Shown one piece after another: positions 2,911 through 26,842 of a stretch of 39,962 bases of DNA; the stretch's first letter is position 1; the number at the start of each line of letters is the position of its first letter. The DNA is from an uncultured Candidatus Melainabacteria bacterium. Its GTDB lineage: Bacteria > Cyanobacteriota > Vampirovibrionia > Gastranaerophilales > Gastranaerophilaceae. The stretch lies in contig CANAJP010000012.1 in NCBI GenBank assembly GCA_947361615.1, forward strand, positions 1-39,962. The letters are read 5' to 3'. The notes under the pieces were generated by a model, which was not told the origin of the DNA, made no database searches, and was given only the letters and a program-made list of their open reading frames with translations. Both the position numbers and the translations under genes were made by a program.

Positions 2911-2923
2911 TATAATCGTGGTA
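2911..2923 (+). promoter_or_regulatory. Extended -10 promoter placing +1 at the kinase ATG (leaderless)
   Basis: TGCTATAAT, with TATAAT at 2911-2916, is followed by six bases and then ATG 2923. No Shine-Dalgarno sequence is present and no good -35 is seen, but the TGn extension can compensate. The geometry implies a leaderless mRNA. Confidence 0.6.
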
Positions 2924-3642
2924 TGAGCGAGAAATTTCAGGAAGATTTTATTTCAACAGTAAGCCACGAGCTTAGAACCCCTCTGACTTCCATCAGGGGG
3001 TTTTCTCAAACCATGCTTAATTCGTGGGATAAGCTTGATGATGAAAGTAAAAAGAAGTTTTTAAAAATTATCGAAGAACAGTCAAACCGTTTAATCCATC
3101 TGGTTGAAAATATGCTGGCTGTGACTAAATTGCAGGCTTGTTCTGATAAATTTATATTAAAAGAGGTTCAAGTGCGAAACGTTATTGATACTGTCGTTGC
3201 AATTGTTAGCAACCAGTACAAAAATCGTAAGTTTTTAATCTCTCAATACAAAAATCTTCCTTCAATTCTTGTTGATGCGGATAAATTTCAGCAGGTAATG
3301 ACTAATATTATAGAAAATTCTGCTAAATATTCATTTGAAAATACCACAATAACAATTGATTTGACCTTGAAAGGTGATTTTGTGTCAATAAAAGTGACCG
3401 ATAACGGGTACGAAATTGAAGAGAAAGATTATGAAAAGATTTTTGAAAAGTTCTCACGTCTTGATAACCCTCTTACACGTGCAGTTCAAGGAAATGGGCT
3501 TGGACTTTATATAACTAAAAATCTCGTTGATAAAATGGATGGGAAAATCATTGTGACTTCAAAAGATAAATTTACGACATTTGAAGTTCTTTTCCCTATT
3601 TATAACATCGAAAGGCAGGCCGGTTCAAAATGCGTACAGTAA
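2923..3642 (+). CDS. Sensorless cytoplasmic histidine kinase
   Basis: A two-component kinase of 239 residues with only the catalytic core. HisKA contains SHELRTPL with phospho-acceptor His15. HATPase_c shows the N box (NIIENSAKYS, about 128-137), F box (FEKFSRL) and G2 box (GNGLGLYITKN, about 190-200). There is no transmembrane segment and no input domain, so the signal must come from a partner. Oddly, the G1 box reads DNGYEI where DNGxGI is usual, so the second glycine is Glu164; this may lower ATP binding. It overlaps the next gene, a receiver protein, by 13 nt, which suggests they form a pair. Expression is probably from the leaderless promoter just upstream. Confidence 0.9.
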   Translation: MSEKFQEDFISTVSHELRTPLTSIRGFSQTMLNSWDKLDDESKKKFLKIIEEQSNRLIHLVENMLAVTKLQACSDKFILKEVQVRNVIDTVVAIVSNQYKNRKFLISQYKNLPSILVDADKFQQVMTNIIENSAKYSFENTTITIDLTLKGDFVSIKVTDNGYEIEEKDYEKIFEKFSRLDNPLTRAVQGNGLGLYITKNLVDKMDGKIIVTSKDKFTTFEVLFPIYNIERQAGSKCVQ

Positions 3643-4925
3643 CTTTGATTATTGATAAAAGAAAAGAACTTTCAACAAAGTACAAAAAACTTCTGAAAGA
3701 CCGTAATAATGACTGTTTTGTGACTAAAAATCTCATTTCGGCAATGAAAACAATTCAGGATTATGAGCCGGATTTGATTCTGATTTCAGATAGTATTGAT
3801 AGTGACCTTTCGGATTACTGCAAAAAAATTCGCGCATTGACTTATGATACACGTCCGATTATTGTTGCTATGTCAAAATCTGATGATATAGTTGATAAGC
3901 TTGATGTTCTGAGAAGCGGTGCCGACGATTTTATAAGCGAGCCGGTGAACGCTGAAGAATTTGTAATGCGTATTAAAGCACATCTTCGCCGTGAGTATGA
4001 GTCGAATTTGGACTTGAAAAAAAGTATTCCGAACCGTAGTTATTCGATGCGTGCACTAAAACGCATGATTGCTTCAAAAGGCTCACATGCAGCGCTTTTG
4101 ATTAGCATTGATAATTTCTTTAACTATAAAGAAAATTATACAGAATTGGCCTCTGACAAGCTTATTCAAACGTATTGGGCTATTATTAAGTCCACAATTG
4201 AAGAGGATGATTACTTTGGAGAAATAAAGGAAAACGAATTCCTCGTTATAACAGACCGTGAAAAAGCCGAAGCTGTGGCGAATTATCTTATTTATGCTTT
4301 TGAAACAGTGTCTTCTAAATTTTATTCGCTTGAGGATAACAAACGCGGTTATATGATGATGAAAGGGGACAGCGAAGCAGGGCGTCGTTCTAACTTTGTT
4401 CACACAACAATCGGGGCAGTGACAAATGAATTTGTCCACTATAAAGACGCAACGCAGTTATTTAACGCACTTGTTCGCATACATAAACTGGCAAAATTCC
4501 CTTCAAAGTCTAATTATTTAATCGAACGTCCTCAGATATCGGGCGAAACGTCTGAACAAACAGGCGTAAATAAAAGGATTGTTATAAGCGAAAAAGATGA
4601 AGCATTGACACTTCTTCTCAAAACAATACTTGATTTACAGGGGTATCAGGCAGAAGTCCTTACTGACGCGTCTGCAATCGTGAATGCGCCGGAGCCTCCT
4701 GCGTTAATAATTCTGGACGCCGGTGAACTTGAAACGCTTGAGGGGATTTCTCACTGCAAAAATATCAAGAATGATGTTAGATTTGCGGTGTCAAAAGTTA
4801 TTTTAACCTCTATTCTTCACGATAAAGAACTTATTTTGAACTGCGGGGCTGATCTTTATTTGCCTAAACCTTACGAACTTTCCAGCCTTATCAAATGGGT
4901 AGACACCTTGTTAAAAGAGGATTAA
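3630..4925 (+). CDS. Response regulator: pseudo-receiver, degenerate GGDEF, receiver
   Basis: 431 residues with three modules. Residues 1-120 have a receiver fold, but the acceptor Asp position in PDLILIS is Ser53 and the conserved Lys of the usual KP motif is Glu104 (SEPV), so this is a probable pseudo-receiver. Residues about 150-300 look like a GGDEF domain (LISIDNFF, then KENEFLVI where GGDEF is expected), so c-di-GMP synthesis is unlikely. Residues about 316-431 form a second receiver with Asp363 (LIILDAGE) and Lys413 (LPKPYE) intact. The order recalls PleD-type proteins, rearranged. Phosphorylation by the overlapping upstream kinase is the natural inference. No DNA-binding domain is present, so output is probably by protein contact. 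Confidence 0.8.
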   Translation: MRTVTLIIDKRKELSTKYKKLLKDRNNDCFVTKNLISAMKTIQDYEPDLILISDSIDSDLSDYCKKIRALTYDTRPIIVAMSKSDDIVDKLDVLRSGADDFISEPVNAEEFVMRIKAHLRREYESNLDLKKSIPNRSYSMRALKRMIASKGSHAALLISIDNFFNYKENYTELASDKLIQTYWAIIKSTIEEDDYFGEIKENEFLVITDREKAEAVANYLIYAFETVSSKFYSLEDNKRGYMMMKGDSEAGRRSNFVHTTIGAVTNEFVHYKDATQLFNALVRIHKLAKFPSKSNYLIERPQISGETSEQTGVNKRIVISEKDEALTLLLKTILDLQGYQAEVLTDASAIVNAPEPPALIILDAGELETLEGISHCKNIKNDVRFAVSKVILTSILHDKELILNCGADLYLPKPYELSSLIKWVDTLLKED

Positions 4926-22482: not shown

Positions 22483-22504
22483 ACTTAATAATTTTGACTA
22501 TACC

Positions 22505-22512
22505 TGTATAAT
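22505..22512 (+). promoter_or_regulatory. Extended -10 promoter of the receiver-PilB-like operon
   Basis: TGTATAAT with TATAAT at 22507-22512 and no good -35. It leaves a leader of about 37 bases before ATG 22556. Confidence 0.5.
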
Positions 22513-22555
22513 AGCGTATTATTTTAGTGTGTATTTTAGTATTGGCAGGTATGAA

Positions 22556-22942
22556 ATGAAAAAAATTCTTATTGTAGACGATGAACAGGATATTGTTGAA
22601 AGTTTGAAATTTGTGCTTGAGATTGCAAATTATACCTGTTATTGTGCGTATAACGGTGAAGATGGATTGCGTATGGCAAAAGAAATTGTGCCGGATTTAA
22701 TTATCCTTGACGTTATGATGCCTAAAATTAACGGGTTTAAAATAAGCCGTTTGCTCAAATTTGACAGCAAGTATAAGGATATTCCGATTTTAATGCTTAC
22801 TGCTCGTTCACAGATGGAGGATAAGCTTATCGGCGAAGAAACAGGCGTTAACGAATATATTACAAAGCCGTTTGATTTGGACGAAGTTGTTGCGAAAGTA
22901 GAACAGTATCTGGGTGCAAATAGTGCAAGCTGTAACAAATAA
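22556..22942 (+). CDS. Single-domain response regulator (CheY/Spo0F type)
   Basis: 128 residues, receiver domain only. ILIVDDEQD holds the acidic pocket, LIILDVMMP the phospho-acceptor Asp, MLTAR the switch Thr, and ITKPFD the conserved Lys, so it looks fully phosphorylatable. The start is ATG 22556 with AGG upstream; the longer frame from GTG 22529 has no site. It overlaps the PilB-like gene by 29 bases, which suggests it works on that protein. The cognate kinase may be either of the soluble kinases at 2.9 or 12.6 kb, but that is a guess. Confidence 0.92.
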   Translation: MKKILIVDDEQDIVESLKFVLEIANYTCYCAYNGEDGLRMAKEIVPDLIILDVMMPKINGFKISRLLKFDSKYKDIPILMLTARSQMEDKLIGEETGVNEYITKPFDLDEVVAKVEQYLGANSASCNK

Positions 22943-24305
22943 AACTCTGGAAAAATTGAAATATGACCTTGTTCGCGAAGGATTGGTGCCGTTTGATGTT
23001 GTTAATCAGGCGACTCAACTTGCGCAGTCACAAAATACGAACATAGGACAGGTTCTTATTAATTCAGGTGTTATCACCGAAGAAGCAATCCTGAAGTTTT
23101 TGGAGGAAAAACTTCATATCCCGTTTGTTAATCTTAACGACTATTCGCTTGATAAAAATACATTAAAGTATATTTCTTATAACGATGCGAAAAAATATAA
23201 GATTTTACCGCTGTTTAAGATTGAAAATGTTTTGACTGTTGCGATGGCCGATCCTATGGATTTGTTCGCTATAGACAAAATCGTCGAAACCGCAGAATGT
23301 TCTATTGAGGCGGTTATTGCATCTGAAAAGGTTGTATTGGAAAAAATCGACGAATATTATAATGAAGCTTCCGGTACCGATAAAATTGTGACATCGTTTG
23401 AAAATGTTGACTATGACTGGCGTGAAGAACTCCATAACGATGATTTAAGCGATGCGCATATACATAAAATTATTAGCTCTATTTTGCGTCAAGCTGTGAT
23501 TGAAAGTGTCCATGAAATCGTTTTCAGGCTTGAAAACGATGGTTTTGAAGTTACATTTAAGACAGTAAACGAAGTCTTGAATAAAGGCACAATCCCTACA
23601 GTTTTGATGGAATCCTTTATCGCTAAGCTTAAACACCTAGCACAATTGGATTCTACGGTGAGTGAGGTTCCGCAACTCGGTAAAATTAATTTTGCAATGG
23701 GGGATTTAACCCTTGTTGCGAGTGTTTCAACGTTCCCGACTATTATGGGTGAACGAATTTATATTAAGCTTTATAAGCCGCCAACTTGTCTGCGTTCGCT
23801 TATTAATTCCACACAAAATTACAACCTGTTGATTAACTCTGTTAAAGAACCGGGGGTGATATTTGTATGCGGTTCACAATTGAGCGGTAAAACCCACCTT
23901 ATTTATTCACTGTTGAATGAAATTTCTTCGCCTGATAAAAATATTATGACGCTTGAAAGTATTACTAAATACAATCTGCCTAACGTAAATCAGTGCGAAC
24001 TTAACGAAAATGTCGGCTTTAATATGGATAAAGCTTCAAGATTTATTGAGTTTCAATCTCCTGATATTATTTACCTTGAGGGGATGAAGAACAAAGAAAC
24101 TTTTGATTATTTTTCAGAACTCGTTTTCAACGATAAAGTTATTATTATGGAGTTTCTGGCAAATAACATGGAAGATTTGCGAAACAAAATTTCTTATTCT
24201 GACTTTGAAACCCTGAAATCTTTAATTTCTTGCCTTGTATTTATTCATTCACAAGATAGTATTGAGGTTTTTGATAAAGAAACCGCGCAAAAATATTTAG
24301 CATAG
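22914..24305 (+). CDS. Degenerate GspE/PilB-like type IV pilus ATPase homologue
   Basis: 463 residues in the PilB/GspE layout. The MshEN domain spans about 12-150 (NIGQVLINSGVITEEAILKFL, ILPLFKIENVLTVAMADP). The ATPase domain begins near 185. Walker A is kept (GSQLSGKT, 320-327). Other motifs are eroded: the usual SDIHIE reads SVHEIVF, the Asp-box TIEDP reads TLESI, Walker B GEIRD reads LEGMKNKET, and the LRxxLRxDPD stretch reads SRFIEFQSPD. The tetracysteine zinc site is missing. It may therefore bind a nucleotide but hydrolyse poorly. The start is GTG 22914 or 22923. It shares an operon with a receiver protein, so a regulatory role in pilus assembly is plausible. Its stop overlaps the convergent TPR gene by nine bases. 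Confidence 0.8.
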   Translation: MQIVQAVTNKTLEKLKYDLVREGLVPFDVVNQATQLAQSQNTNIGQVLINSGVITEEAILKFLEEKLHIPFVNLNDYSLDKNTLKYISYNDAKKYKILPLFKIENVLTVAMADPMDLFAIDKIVETAECSIEAVIASEKVVLEKIDEYYNEASGTDKIVTSFENVDYDWREELHNDDLSDAHIHKIISSILRQAVIESVHEIVFRLENDGFEVTFKTVNEVLNKGTIPTVLMESFIAKLKHLAQLDSTVSEVPQLGKINFAMGDLTLVASVSTFPTIMGERIYIKLYKPPTCLRSLINSTQNYNLLINSVKEPGVIFVCGSQLSGKTHLIYSLLNEISSPDKNIMTLESITKYNLPNVNQCELNENVGFNMDKASRFIEFQSPDIIYLEGMKNKETFDYFSELVFNDKVIIMEFLANNMEDLRNKISYSDFETLKSLISCLVFIHSQDSIEVFDKETAQKYLA

Positions 24306-25094: not shown

Positions 25095-25107
25095 TATAAC
25101 ATTGTTA
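25095..25107 (+). promoter_or_regulatory. -10 element with leaderless geometry for secreted paralogue A
   Basis: TATAAC (25095-25100), six bases, ATG 25107; no Shine-Dalgarno sequence. The -35 (TGGATT at 25072-25077, 17-base spacing) is weak. Confidence 0.5.
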
Positions 25108-25925
25108 TGAGAAGAGCTGTTTTATTATTGGGATTAATGTTATCAGGTTTGGCTGCTTATGGCGCGGAGCTTTCGCTTCCTAACGGTTCTACGAACATGC
25201 AGGGGCTTGAAATACCTAAAGTTAACGTGAACACAAAAGAATCTCTTTTGACGTCCGATGAAGAATATATGAAAGAAATCATCGGGCTTCAGCGTGAGAA
25301 AGATTTAGAAGATATTGAAAACCTGTGGGAGGGAACTGTTAACAACAATCAGGTTATTTCGTTTGCCTTGAAAAAACTTGCAACACCTGAAAGTCAGCGT
25401 AGAATTCACTCCTCTTTGATGTCTAAGACCCTTTCTGCTATGGTCGCAGGAGCCTCATTCGCCCCGATGTTTTTAGGGCAGAATTATATGCTTCAATCAG
25501 GTTCTTTTGCGGCTGGTCGTCTTGCGCAGAATTTAATTAATAAGAAAAATGTACCTCAGGAAATCCCGCTTACGGATACCGAAATGATTGAACTGGCAGG
25601 ATTAATTGAAAACTTGCAGGATACGATTATCAGCACTTATTACAATTATAAAAATTCTCTTACCCAGTTGAAAGAAACCAGAACAAAGCTTCTTTTGTAC
25701 AGTAAAAATTATTCAAACGCTCTGGAACGTGAGGATTTGTTGGAAATTACGATTTCTTCGTCACTGTATGAGAGTTTGCAGATTGATGAGTTCTACCATC
25801 TTGAGAACGCTAAGAAATACCATCTTGCGCTTCAAAGGCTTGCCGGTAAGAAAATTGTTGAGAATTTGAATCTTATTCAATTTAATAACAGTGTTTTATT
25901 AGACAAATCTGGAGGTAAAAAATGA
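25107..25925 (+). CDS. Secreted helical protein A (paralogue pair), unknown function
   Basis: 272 residues. A clear signal peptide (MRRAVLLLGLMLSGLAAYGA) precedes a helical, charged region with LWEGTVNNNQVISFALKKL. A small-residue hydrophobic stretch follows (MVAGASFAPMFLGQNYMLQSGSFAAG, cited in parts, about 110-135), then a long C-terminal helical part (DTIISTYYNYKNSL, then LEREDLLEI). The next gene shows the same order of elements, so the two are paralogues. The paired long helices recall TolC-like or coiled-coil envelope proteins, but I cannot assign a family. It overlaps the next start by ATGA. Confidence 0.75.
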   Translation: MRRAVLLLGLMLSGLAAYGAELSLPNGSTNMQGLEIPKVNVNTKESLLTSDEEYMKEIIGLQREKDLEDIENLWEGTVNNNQVISFALKKLATPESQRRIHSSLMSKTLSAMVAGASFAPMFLGQNYMLQSGSFAAGRLAQNLINKKNVPQEIPLTDTEMIELAGLIENLQDTIISTYYNYKNSLTQLKETRTKLLLYSKNYSNALEREDLLEITISSSLYESLQIDEFYHLENAKKYHLALQRLAGKKIVENLNLIQFNNSVLLDKSGGKK

Positions 25926-26842
25926 AGAAAATCTTGTTTATATTGGCGCTGATTTTATCTTCTTCCCAGCTTTTTGCCGCTGATTTGTCAGAACTTAATT
26001 CTCCTAAACCGCTTTTATACCGTATGGGATTAACAGATGATTCGGAGATTAAGTATTCACCGGTGGATAATAAAATCCATGCAAATGTTTCAGTTACCGA
26101 AAAGAAAATTGATTATTCGCTAGATAAAATTACGGCCGGTAATCTTGATACCTGTGATTTGAGTAAAATAACATACGCTGATTTGAGTATTAAAAGGCTT
26201 TCAAAGGAGATTGAAAAAGATCTTGCTGCAGATGAACGTGAAATGATGGCCGATTTGTCTTTGTTATGGCAAGGTGCAGCAACACAAAGTGACACTATTA
26301 ACTTCGCACTTTATAAACTTTCAAATCCCGAAGAGGATAAACCTGATAGTAAATCAATAAAGAGCGTTCTTGGAAACATTGCCAGTATGTCGACGCTTGC
26401 GGGTGCTACAATGGGCAGCCCTATGCTTGCAGCAGGTTCGCTTCTTGGCGGGAATTTAATGAGTATATTTGCACAGGATACAAAAGCTCTTAACTATAAA
26501 TACACAAAAGTTAACGACGCAGATATGATTATCCTTGTGCGTAAAGTCGAGGAATTACAGCAAAAAACTGTCGATTTGTATTATGACTATATGACGTCTC
26601 GAAAAAAAATGAATATGCTGCAAAAAATGGCTGTTGAGCGTAAAAAGAATTATGATTTGTCACAAAATGCGACAAGAGAAATTCTTCTTATTTCTGATGC
26701 ATACTATCGTAACGCTGTTGATTCTCTAGCCAAGGCAACATCTGAATTCTATACAATCCGCGCTACACTAGAGCAGTTTGTTGGTCATGATATTTTTGTT
26801 CAATTTGAGGAAGAAATAAATTCTCGTGAGAAAGATAAATAA
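25922..26842 (+). CDS. Secreted helical protein B (paralogue pair), unknown function
   Basis: 306 residues. Signal peptide ends at FAA (about residue 20). It has the same layout as its neighbour: LLWQGAATQSDTINFALYKL aligns with LWEGTVNNNQVISFALKKL, then a Gly/Ala/Met-rich stretch (LAGATMGSPMLAAGSLLGGNLM in outline, about 157-180), then VDLYYDYMTSRKKMN aligning with ISTYYNYKNSLTQLK, and a helical tail. The extra length lies in the N-terminal linker. GGAGG precedes ATG 25922. Translational overlap suggests a stoichiometric pair in the envelope. Confidence 0.75.
   Translation: MKKILFILALILSSSQLFAADLSELNSPKPLLYRMGLTDDSEIKYSPVDNKIHANVSVTEKKIDYSLDKITAGNLDTCDLSKITYADLSIKRLSKEIEKDLAADEREMMADLSLLWQGAATQSDTINFALYKLSNPEEDKPDSKSIKSVLGNIASMSTLAGATMGSPMLAAGSLLGGNLMSIFAQDTKALNYKYTKVNDADMIILVRKVEELQQKTVDLYYDYMTSRKKMNMLQKMAVERKKNYDLSQNATREILLISDAYYRNAVDSLAKATSEFYTIRATLEQFVGHDIFVQFEEEINSREKDK

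Follow-up and report, generated by a model that had tools for sequence, protein, structure and literature searches.

A PilB-derived pseudo-ATPase as the probable effector of an order-wide phospho-signalling module in Gastranaerophilales

The receiver and PilB-like genes

The window, by which we mean the whole stretch of DNA analyzed, comprises 39,962 nucleotides from an uncultured Candidatus Melainabacteria bacterium of the order Gastranaerophilales. Two overlapping genes on its forward strand are the subject of this work. The first, at positions 22556 to 22942 (ATG at 22556, stop codon at 22940-22942), encodes a stand-alone receiver of 128 aa, i.e. a response regulator without output domain, which scores 94.1 bits with PF00072 (cut-off 30.2). 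Its phosphorylation site, D8, D9, E10, D52, T82 and K104, is complete, and is found so in all 116 aligned receiver rows (loci with a receiver above 140 bits, the window's own gene being present twice). The receiver dN/dS lies between 0.018 and 0.096 in nine pairs. Just upstream, at 22485-22522 of the same strand, there are two overlapping sigma-70-like promoter matches, 10/12 each, which point to a promoter only weakly, since the region shows 13 such matches and shuffles give an expected 9.2 (sd 2.8).

The second gene, at 22914-24305 of the forward strand, encodes a PilB-like pseudo-ATPase, from here on pseudo-PilB, of 463 aa if read from the GTG at 22914 or 460 aa if read from that at 22923. 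Relatives align from about the second GTG, which leaves both starts in consideration, and the frame overlaps the 3' end of the receiver gene by 20-29 bases accordingly. The protein matches PF00437 with 84.6 bits (cut-off 24.9) and the MshEN profile PF05157 with 63.5 bits (cut-off 23.1), and its score with TIGR02538, the type IV-A PilB model, is 181.4 bits, below the curated cut-off of 675.65. An AlphaFold2 model built from 58 sequences has a mean pLDDT of 82.5 and a pTM of 0.64. Residues 174-460 of the model superpose on PilB (5zfr_B) with a VIA-align Z of 24.9 and an rmsd of 3.3 over 281 aligned positions, the PilB fold (N2D plus RecA core) hence being present in the predicted structure. Residues 10-146 superpose on the MshEN domain 5htl_B with a Z of 18.2, an rmsd of 2.2, 137 aligned positions and 29% identity, so that the MshEN (GSPII/N1D) domain, about residues 10-148 of the 460-aa form, is placed at 22950-23366 of the forward strand by both profile and structure match.

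An earlier note on this DNA, made from the sequence alone, had described a receiver with a complete phosphorylation site "fused by operon" to an eroded PilB-like ATPase. The site and the overlap of the reading frames are as it stated; a protein fusion was not seen, the window having two separate overlapping frames. One candidate fusion, a 587-aa open frame of genome G056 with receiver and pseudo-PilB in-frame, was rejected owing to a stop codon between them.

Two further stretches of the window deserve mention. At 2923-4925 lies another small two-component pair, made up of a short histidine kinase of 239 aa and, overlapping it, a 431-aa protein that combines a receiver with a weak, possibly degenerate GGDEF. 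At 25107-26842 there are two tandem genes of 272 and 306 aa, possibly related to each other, with signal-peptide-like starts as judged by reading the sequence and no Pfam match.

Conserved replacement of the motor motifs

The family set comprises 127 distinct members (140 hits of 380-600 aa, from which duplicates were removed), and was compared with 11 canonical PilB rows longer than 600 aa, 10 of them distinct because the organism's own PilB is counted twice. The roles of these motifs in motors are taken as background, complemented by parts of a review (PMC11656802).

The Walker A GSQLSGKT (23871-23894, forward strand, as are all motifs below) keeps the GxxxxGK[TS] pattern, in agreement with the earlier note, and is intact in 123 of the 127 members. 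The four members without it are L125 and the clade L131-L133; their genes are retained, and nucleotide binding is probably dispensable at least in that clade, given the loss of Walker A there. The pseudo-PilBs of this clade, which belongs to family f6, also lack part of the C-terminus, with MshEN and the neighbouring receiver and kinase kept.

The remaining motifs are altered, each in a characteristic way. The Asp box (23949-23972) reads T-L-E-S-I-T-K-Y, where PilB has T-I-E-D-P-I-E-I; across the family the EDPxE pattern has become ESxxK (ESITK in the window), with the first Glu kept in 127/127, the Asp changed to Ser in 126/127 and the second Glu to Lys in 127/127. The Walker B (24057-24086) reads S-P-D-I-I-Y-L-E-G-M against D-P-D-I-I-L-I-G-E-I in PilB, so that its Glu stands one place closer to the N-terminus (EG in the window, GE in PilB), a shift seen in every one of the 127 members; the catalytic position itself holds Gly in 104 and Glu in 13, the latter having both (EE). 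In the region of the PilB His box (24126-24173) both His are replaced, the first by Lys in 124/127 and the second by Leu in 107/127. Within the PilB segment RxSTxP...R the first Arg is Ser in 109 members and the last Arg is Lys in 124. The zinc-cysteine segment is missing from all 127, and a median of 48 residues follows the His box, compared with 152 in PilB.

Pseudo-PilB dN/dS is 0.014-0.047 (about 0.01-0.05) in the eight computable pairs, a rough estimate because dS is 1.0-2.2, near saturation; a further pair (L007-L013) yielded no dS. In a FastTree phylogeny the family forms a single, monophyletic clade (support 0.81) borne on a long stem (2.9). The earlier comparison of active sites thus holds insofar as the catalytic motifs do differ from those of PilB, with Walker B, Asp box, His box and zinc segment changed or absent, whereas the words "degraded" and "eroded" do not: according to the alignments, these are lineage-wide, well conserved replacements and not decay, since dN/dS is low and most of the 127 members share the alternative residues.

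The MshEN domain and c-di-GMP

The c-di-GMP binding motif described in parts of the MshE paper, RLGxx(L/V/I)(L/V/I)xxG(L/V/I)(L/V/I)xxxxLxxxLxxQ, is present there twice (PMC5013675). With respect to Vibrio MshE (5htl), pseudo-PilB shares the fold and keeps the 24 + 5 + 24 residue spacing, and the hydrophobic positions of both motifs are mostly kept in the family as well; the c-di-GMP contacts, in contrast, are mostly replaced. The Arg and Gln of both 24-residue RLG...Q motifs are changed in the window protein and in most members: in motif I Arg is Lys or Thr in 127/127, Gly is Lys in 125, the last Leu is Glu or Gln in 117 and Gln is Ala in 116, and in motif II Arg is Asn in 118/127 and Gln is Lys in 120/127. 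The NF053729 score of the window protein, 27.5 bits, is below the cut-off of 38. It should be noted that part of this motif loss is not special to the family, since canonical PilB rows in the same alignment depart too (Pro for the motif II Arg in 10/11, Ser for the motif I Gln in 8/11).

As for the consequences of such changes, the portions of the MshE work available to us report that single Arg or Gln replacements lower c-di-GMP affinity by a factor of about five at the most and that binding may not require perfect motifs (PMC5013675), and those of a Thermus study that a shortened GSPII-A construct regained measurable binding once the motif II Arg and both Gln were reinstated (PMC12002112). 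The Thermus PilF GSPII-A domain, unlike that of pseudo-PilB, belongs to a pilus ATPase that is active and has two other binding domains besides. With most contact residues replaced family-wide, c-di-GMP binding through this MshEN, which the earlier note had brought up from other family members, appears doubtful. C-di-GMP signalling as such probably exists in the organism, because seven GGDEF matches occur in its genome, including a weak one inside the window.

The MshEN half is nevertheless the best conserved part of the protein, with a mean column identity of 0.67-0.68. The core and N2D follow with 0.60 and 0.57, and the tail and the linker come last with 0.47 and 0.38. From this high conservation together with the replaced contacts, we infer that the family MshEN may bind a protein, most simply the receiver. 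A precedent, going by the titles of the structure entries 7lko and 7lkm, is the solved complex of the X. citri PilB N-terminal domain with PilZ, in which an MshEN-type domain binds a small regulator. Bdellovibrio Bd2402, an MshEN-containing response regulator, resembles our case in coupling two-component signalling to MshEN, as far as described in the consulted part of PMC5013675; there it is reported as a tight c-di-GMP binder, whereas here receiver and MshEN are separate proteins and most contacts are gone.

The kinase-receiver-pseudo-PilB module

In relatives, a histidine kinase (mostly about 540-710 aa, with HisKA and HATPase domains) precedes the receiver; some of these kinases have a receiver-like N-terminus scoring below the Pfam cut-off. 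Among the best 80 of 143 related loci, the receiver lies directly upstream of pseudo-PilB in 77 according to our script; regarding the other three, two leave no room upstream and the third, L085, has a receiver recognized by eye that missed the script limit. Of those 80 loci, 65 extend at least 3.5 kb upstream, and in 43 of the 65 this upstream part includes the kinase, on the same strand. Downstream of the module in one genus (g47, L118:5382-7941) come genes for a phosphoribosyltransferase, a membrane protein of the YitT family and an alanine dehydrogenase-like protein.

Outside the window's taxonomic family the receiver adjoins pseudo-PilB in 12 of 19 loci, the kinase being directly upstream in 11 of these and one gene away in the twelfth. 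Of the other seven, six have the receiver next to the kinase at a different place in the genome, and the seventh genome, G078 (88% complete), gave no kinase match. In the window's own genus the division is a different one: kinase and pseudo-PilB are on different contigs in 7/7 genomes, both retained, and the receiver stays with pseudo-PilB. The own-genome kinase candidate (L137, 570 aa, contig C24, unlinked) is the best match in this genome to the kinase of relatives, at 40% identity and 411 bits, the next match having 103. Since receiver-kinase pairs occur in some lineages and receiver-pseudo-PilB pairs in others, the genes have been split at different junctions and usually kept. Adjacency of this kind speaks for association of the three genes, not for contact.

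A screen of 237 genomes of the order with a completeness of 95% or more, among which the window's own family accounts for 228, gave pseudo-PilB in 234 (E<=1e-40), the kinase in 233 (E<=1e-55) and both in 233. Three (G034, G163, G220) are without both, and in G219 pseudo-PilB runs into the contig end and the kinase match is absent. When completeness is disregarded, pseudo-PilB is present in 77 and the kinase (E<=1e-70) in 78 of 82 genomes of the order; G075 (66% complete) and G076 (92%), in the latter of which the kinase sits near a contig end with no receiver in the sequence covered, have only the kinase, G078 has only pseudo-PilB, and G034, G036 and G044 have neither. Co-loss was considered as support for the module and set aside: G034 is also missing a 7.1 kb block (L173 6152-13300) that includes other genes, and joint absences are not counted as evidence because they may reflect missing DNA.

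Concerning taxonomic range, those close relatives that carry a group name come mostly from Gastranaerophilales or Melainabacteria genomes, many from guts, a few being filed under other names. In 17 genomes of other orders of the class the family was not found; the matches there reach at most 108 bits, and those listed belong to long frames of the size of PilB. When 291 genomes of the phylum were searched with a profile, the matches listed fell into pseudo-PilBs of the order, with at least 472 bits, and all others, with at most 196; the listed matches outside the order are again in long PilB-size frames, except for a 470-aa frame (G303) whose start is 59 bases away from the end of a contig. Taking all genomes searched and all matches listed, the family is found only in Gastranaerophilales.

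No description of this module was found in the open-access literature within the search terms used. The consulted parts of PMC5877343, where pilB and other pilus genes of a Gastranaerophilus genome are mentioned, of PMC4451040 and of the review PMC11656802 do not mention it.

Pilus motors in the same genomes

The genome of the organism (1.83 Mb, 95.6% complete) has a canonical PilB (L001, 670 aa) with intact motifs, located between a secretin-like and a PilC-like ORF, and two PilT-type genes, all outside the window; "secretin-like" and "PilT-type" are judged from ORFs and scores, and PilC is confirmed by PF00482. The canonical pilB and pilT that the earlier note proposed to locate are therefore found elsewhere in the genome, and the window gene encodes a further protein, distinct from these. 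This genome also has another PilC-like gene (PF00482) outside the pilus cluster (L182, on contig G000:C68). Most other genomes of the order that were searched have a canonical PilB as well; G110, G177, G182, G204, G208 and G273 show weaker evidence of one. Pilus genes near pseudo-PilB were not found among the Pfam-scanned neighbours (8 in the window and 20 ORFs around relatives' copies).

With respect to INDEPENDENCE from the pilus motor, six of the 237 genomes have a single PF00437 match at E<=1e-15. They belong to two genera, g34 (G039, G249) and g40 (G045, G250, G251, G252), and are 96-99% complete, G252 with 6% contamination. In G039 and G045 the coordinates of the sole match are those of pseudo-PilB, further matches (E up to 0.001) staying under 20 bits, and in the other four the match was taken as pseudo-PilB from its E-value. 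PF00482 (PilC) was matched in none of the six, and it was matched in the other four genomes of the same search. These two genera appear to have lost type IV pilus motors and PilC.

Pseudo-PilB and the kinase are present in every one of the six genomes (6/6 each), and the receiver was found in the four checked (4/4). In the four corresponding loci (L174-L177) the open frames of receiver, kinase and pseudo-PilB lie side by side, the kinase of L174 on the opposite strand, and their pseudo-PilBs resemble the other family members in having Walker A together with the replaced motifs. Since six genomes without recognizable PilB, PilT or PilC keep the module, a pilus motor is not needed for its retention.

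Proposed role and alternative explanations

Our main reading, to which we give a probability of roughly two in three, is that the PilB-derived pseudo-ATPase is the effector of a phospho-signalling module, kinase-receiver-pseudo-PilB, that extends through the order. The window would hold the receiver-effector half of these three genes, associated by comparative genomics. The histidine kinase, a HisKA-HATPase protein without obvious membrane segment on a reading of the sequence, would phosphorylate the receiver, and the phosphorylated receiver would in turn act on pseudo-PilB by protein contact, most likely at the conserved MshEN domain. Pseudo-PilB itself probably binds nucleotide without driving a motor, and could serve as a conformational effector or a scaffold. 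In the window's genus the kinase, although separated to another contig, has been retained. Control by phosphorylation, as the earlier note had suggested, is plausible in view of the overlap of receiver and pseudo-PilB and of the upstream kinase in relatives. The other half of its suggestion, a partner of the real pilus motor, is not supported as a general role given the six genomes of two genera described above, and in at least these two genera the target could not be a recognizable type IV pilus motor.

A broader scenario, which we put forward tentatively and with less than even confidence, is that a pilus-motor ATPase became a non-motor signalling effector in a single event at the base of Gastranaerophilales. 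Its MshEN would have exchanged c-di-GMP for the phosphorylated receiver as ligand, its P-loop would have become a nucleotide-sensing switch, and its output would be a pilus-independent pathway, retained even in the absence of pilus motors.

The strongest alternative, which we nonetheless consider unlikely, is that pseudo-PilB is a phosphorylation-controlled regulator or a non-catalytic subunit of the canonical PilB assembly motor. It is related to PilB in sequence and fold, a canonical PilB is present in its own genome and in most members of the order searched, and small regulators of PilB, e.g. PilZ and FimX, are known (PMC11656802, in the parts consulted). A role in pili is indeed possible in piliated members, because most module-bearing genomes have type IV pilus motors. 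Against this, all six genomes of g34 and g40 keep the protein; in each of them PF00437 gives a single match at E<=1e-15, of pseudo-PilB strength, and PF00482 gives none. Moreover, no pilus genes appear among its scanned neighbours, and it is without the zinc segment and the greater part of the PilB C-terminal portion.

Less probable still, pseudo-PilB may be active in an unusual way and act as a signalling ATPase or switch, the role of the catalytic Glu having passed to the Asp-box Glu and the shifted Walker B Glu. Both of these Glu are invariant in the family, and together with the nearly universal Walker A and the 13 members with EE they make some residual ATPase activity possible. The loss of both His-box His and the Asp-to-Ser and Glu-to-Lys changes of the Asp box argue against this alternative, as do L125 and the clade L131-L133, whose genes are still kept without Walker A. 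Finally, the view that a second pilB is decaying as a pseudogene that its operon carries along would account for catalytic motifs unlike those of PilB and can be practically dismissed, being ruled out by purifying selection and by order-wide conservation with open frames in nearly all matches listed.

Returning to the effector reading, comparison with known systems helps to place the protein. PilB, PilF and GspE, the assembly ATPases of type IV pili and type II secretion (e.g. Geobacter PilB, 5zfr and 5tsh), share with it the MshEN, the N2D, the RecA-like core and Walker A, whereas pseudo-PilB has an altered Asp box and Walker B, neither the His-box His nor the zinc segment, a C-terminus about 100 residues shorter, no pilus genes among the neighbours scanned, and persists without PilB, PilT and PilC in two genera. 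PilU, the auxiliary retraction ATPase, is likewise a second ATPase paralogue beside a main motor (PMC11656802, parts consulted); PilU works with PilT, whereas pseudo-PilB is kept in six genomes without a PilT-level match. The nearest precedent we found for a PilB with a signalling role outside the pilus is Myxococcus PilB, whose nucleotide state signals to an exopolysaccharide process according to section 13 of the same review, with the difference that there the regulator is the active motor itself.

PilB/GspE secretion ATPases are normally read as motors, and annotation would be likely to call pseudo-PilB a second PilB. Should our main reading be true, a motor ATPase would have been recruited as a two-component output, with an MshEN domain whose partner is a protein and not c-di-GMP, and the module would be a core, lineage-wide signalling pathway in mostly uncultured gut bacteria. 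The genera without pilus motors offer natural motor knock-outs for asking what the module does.
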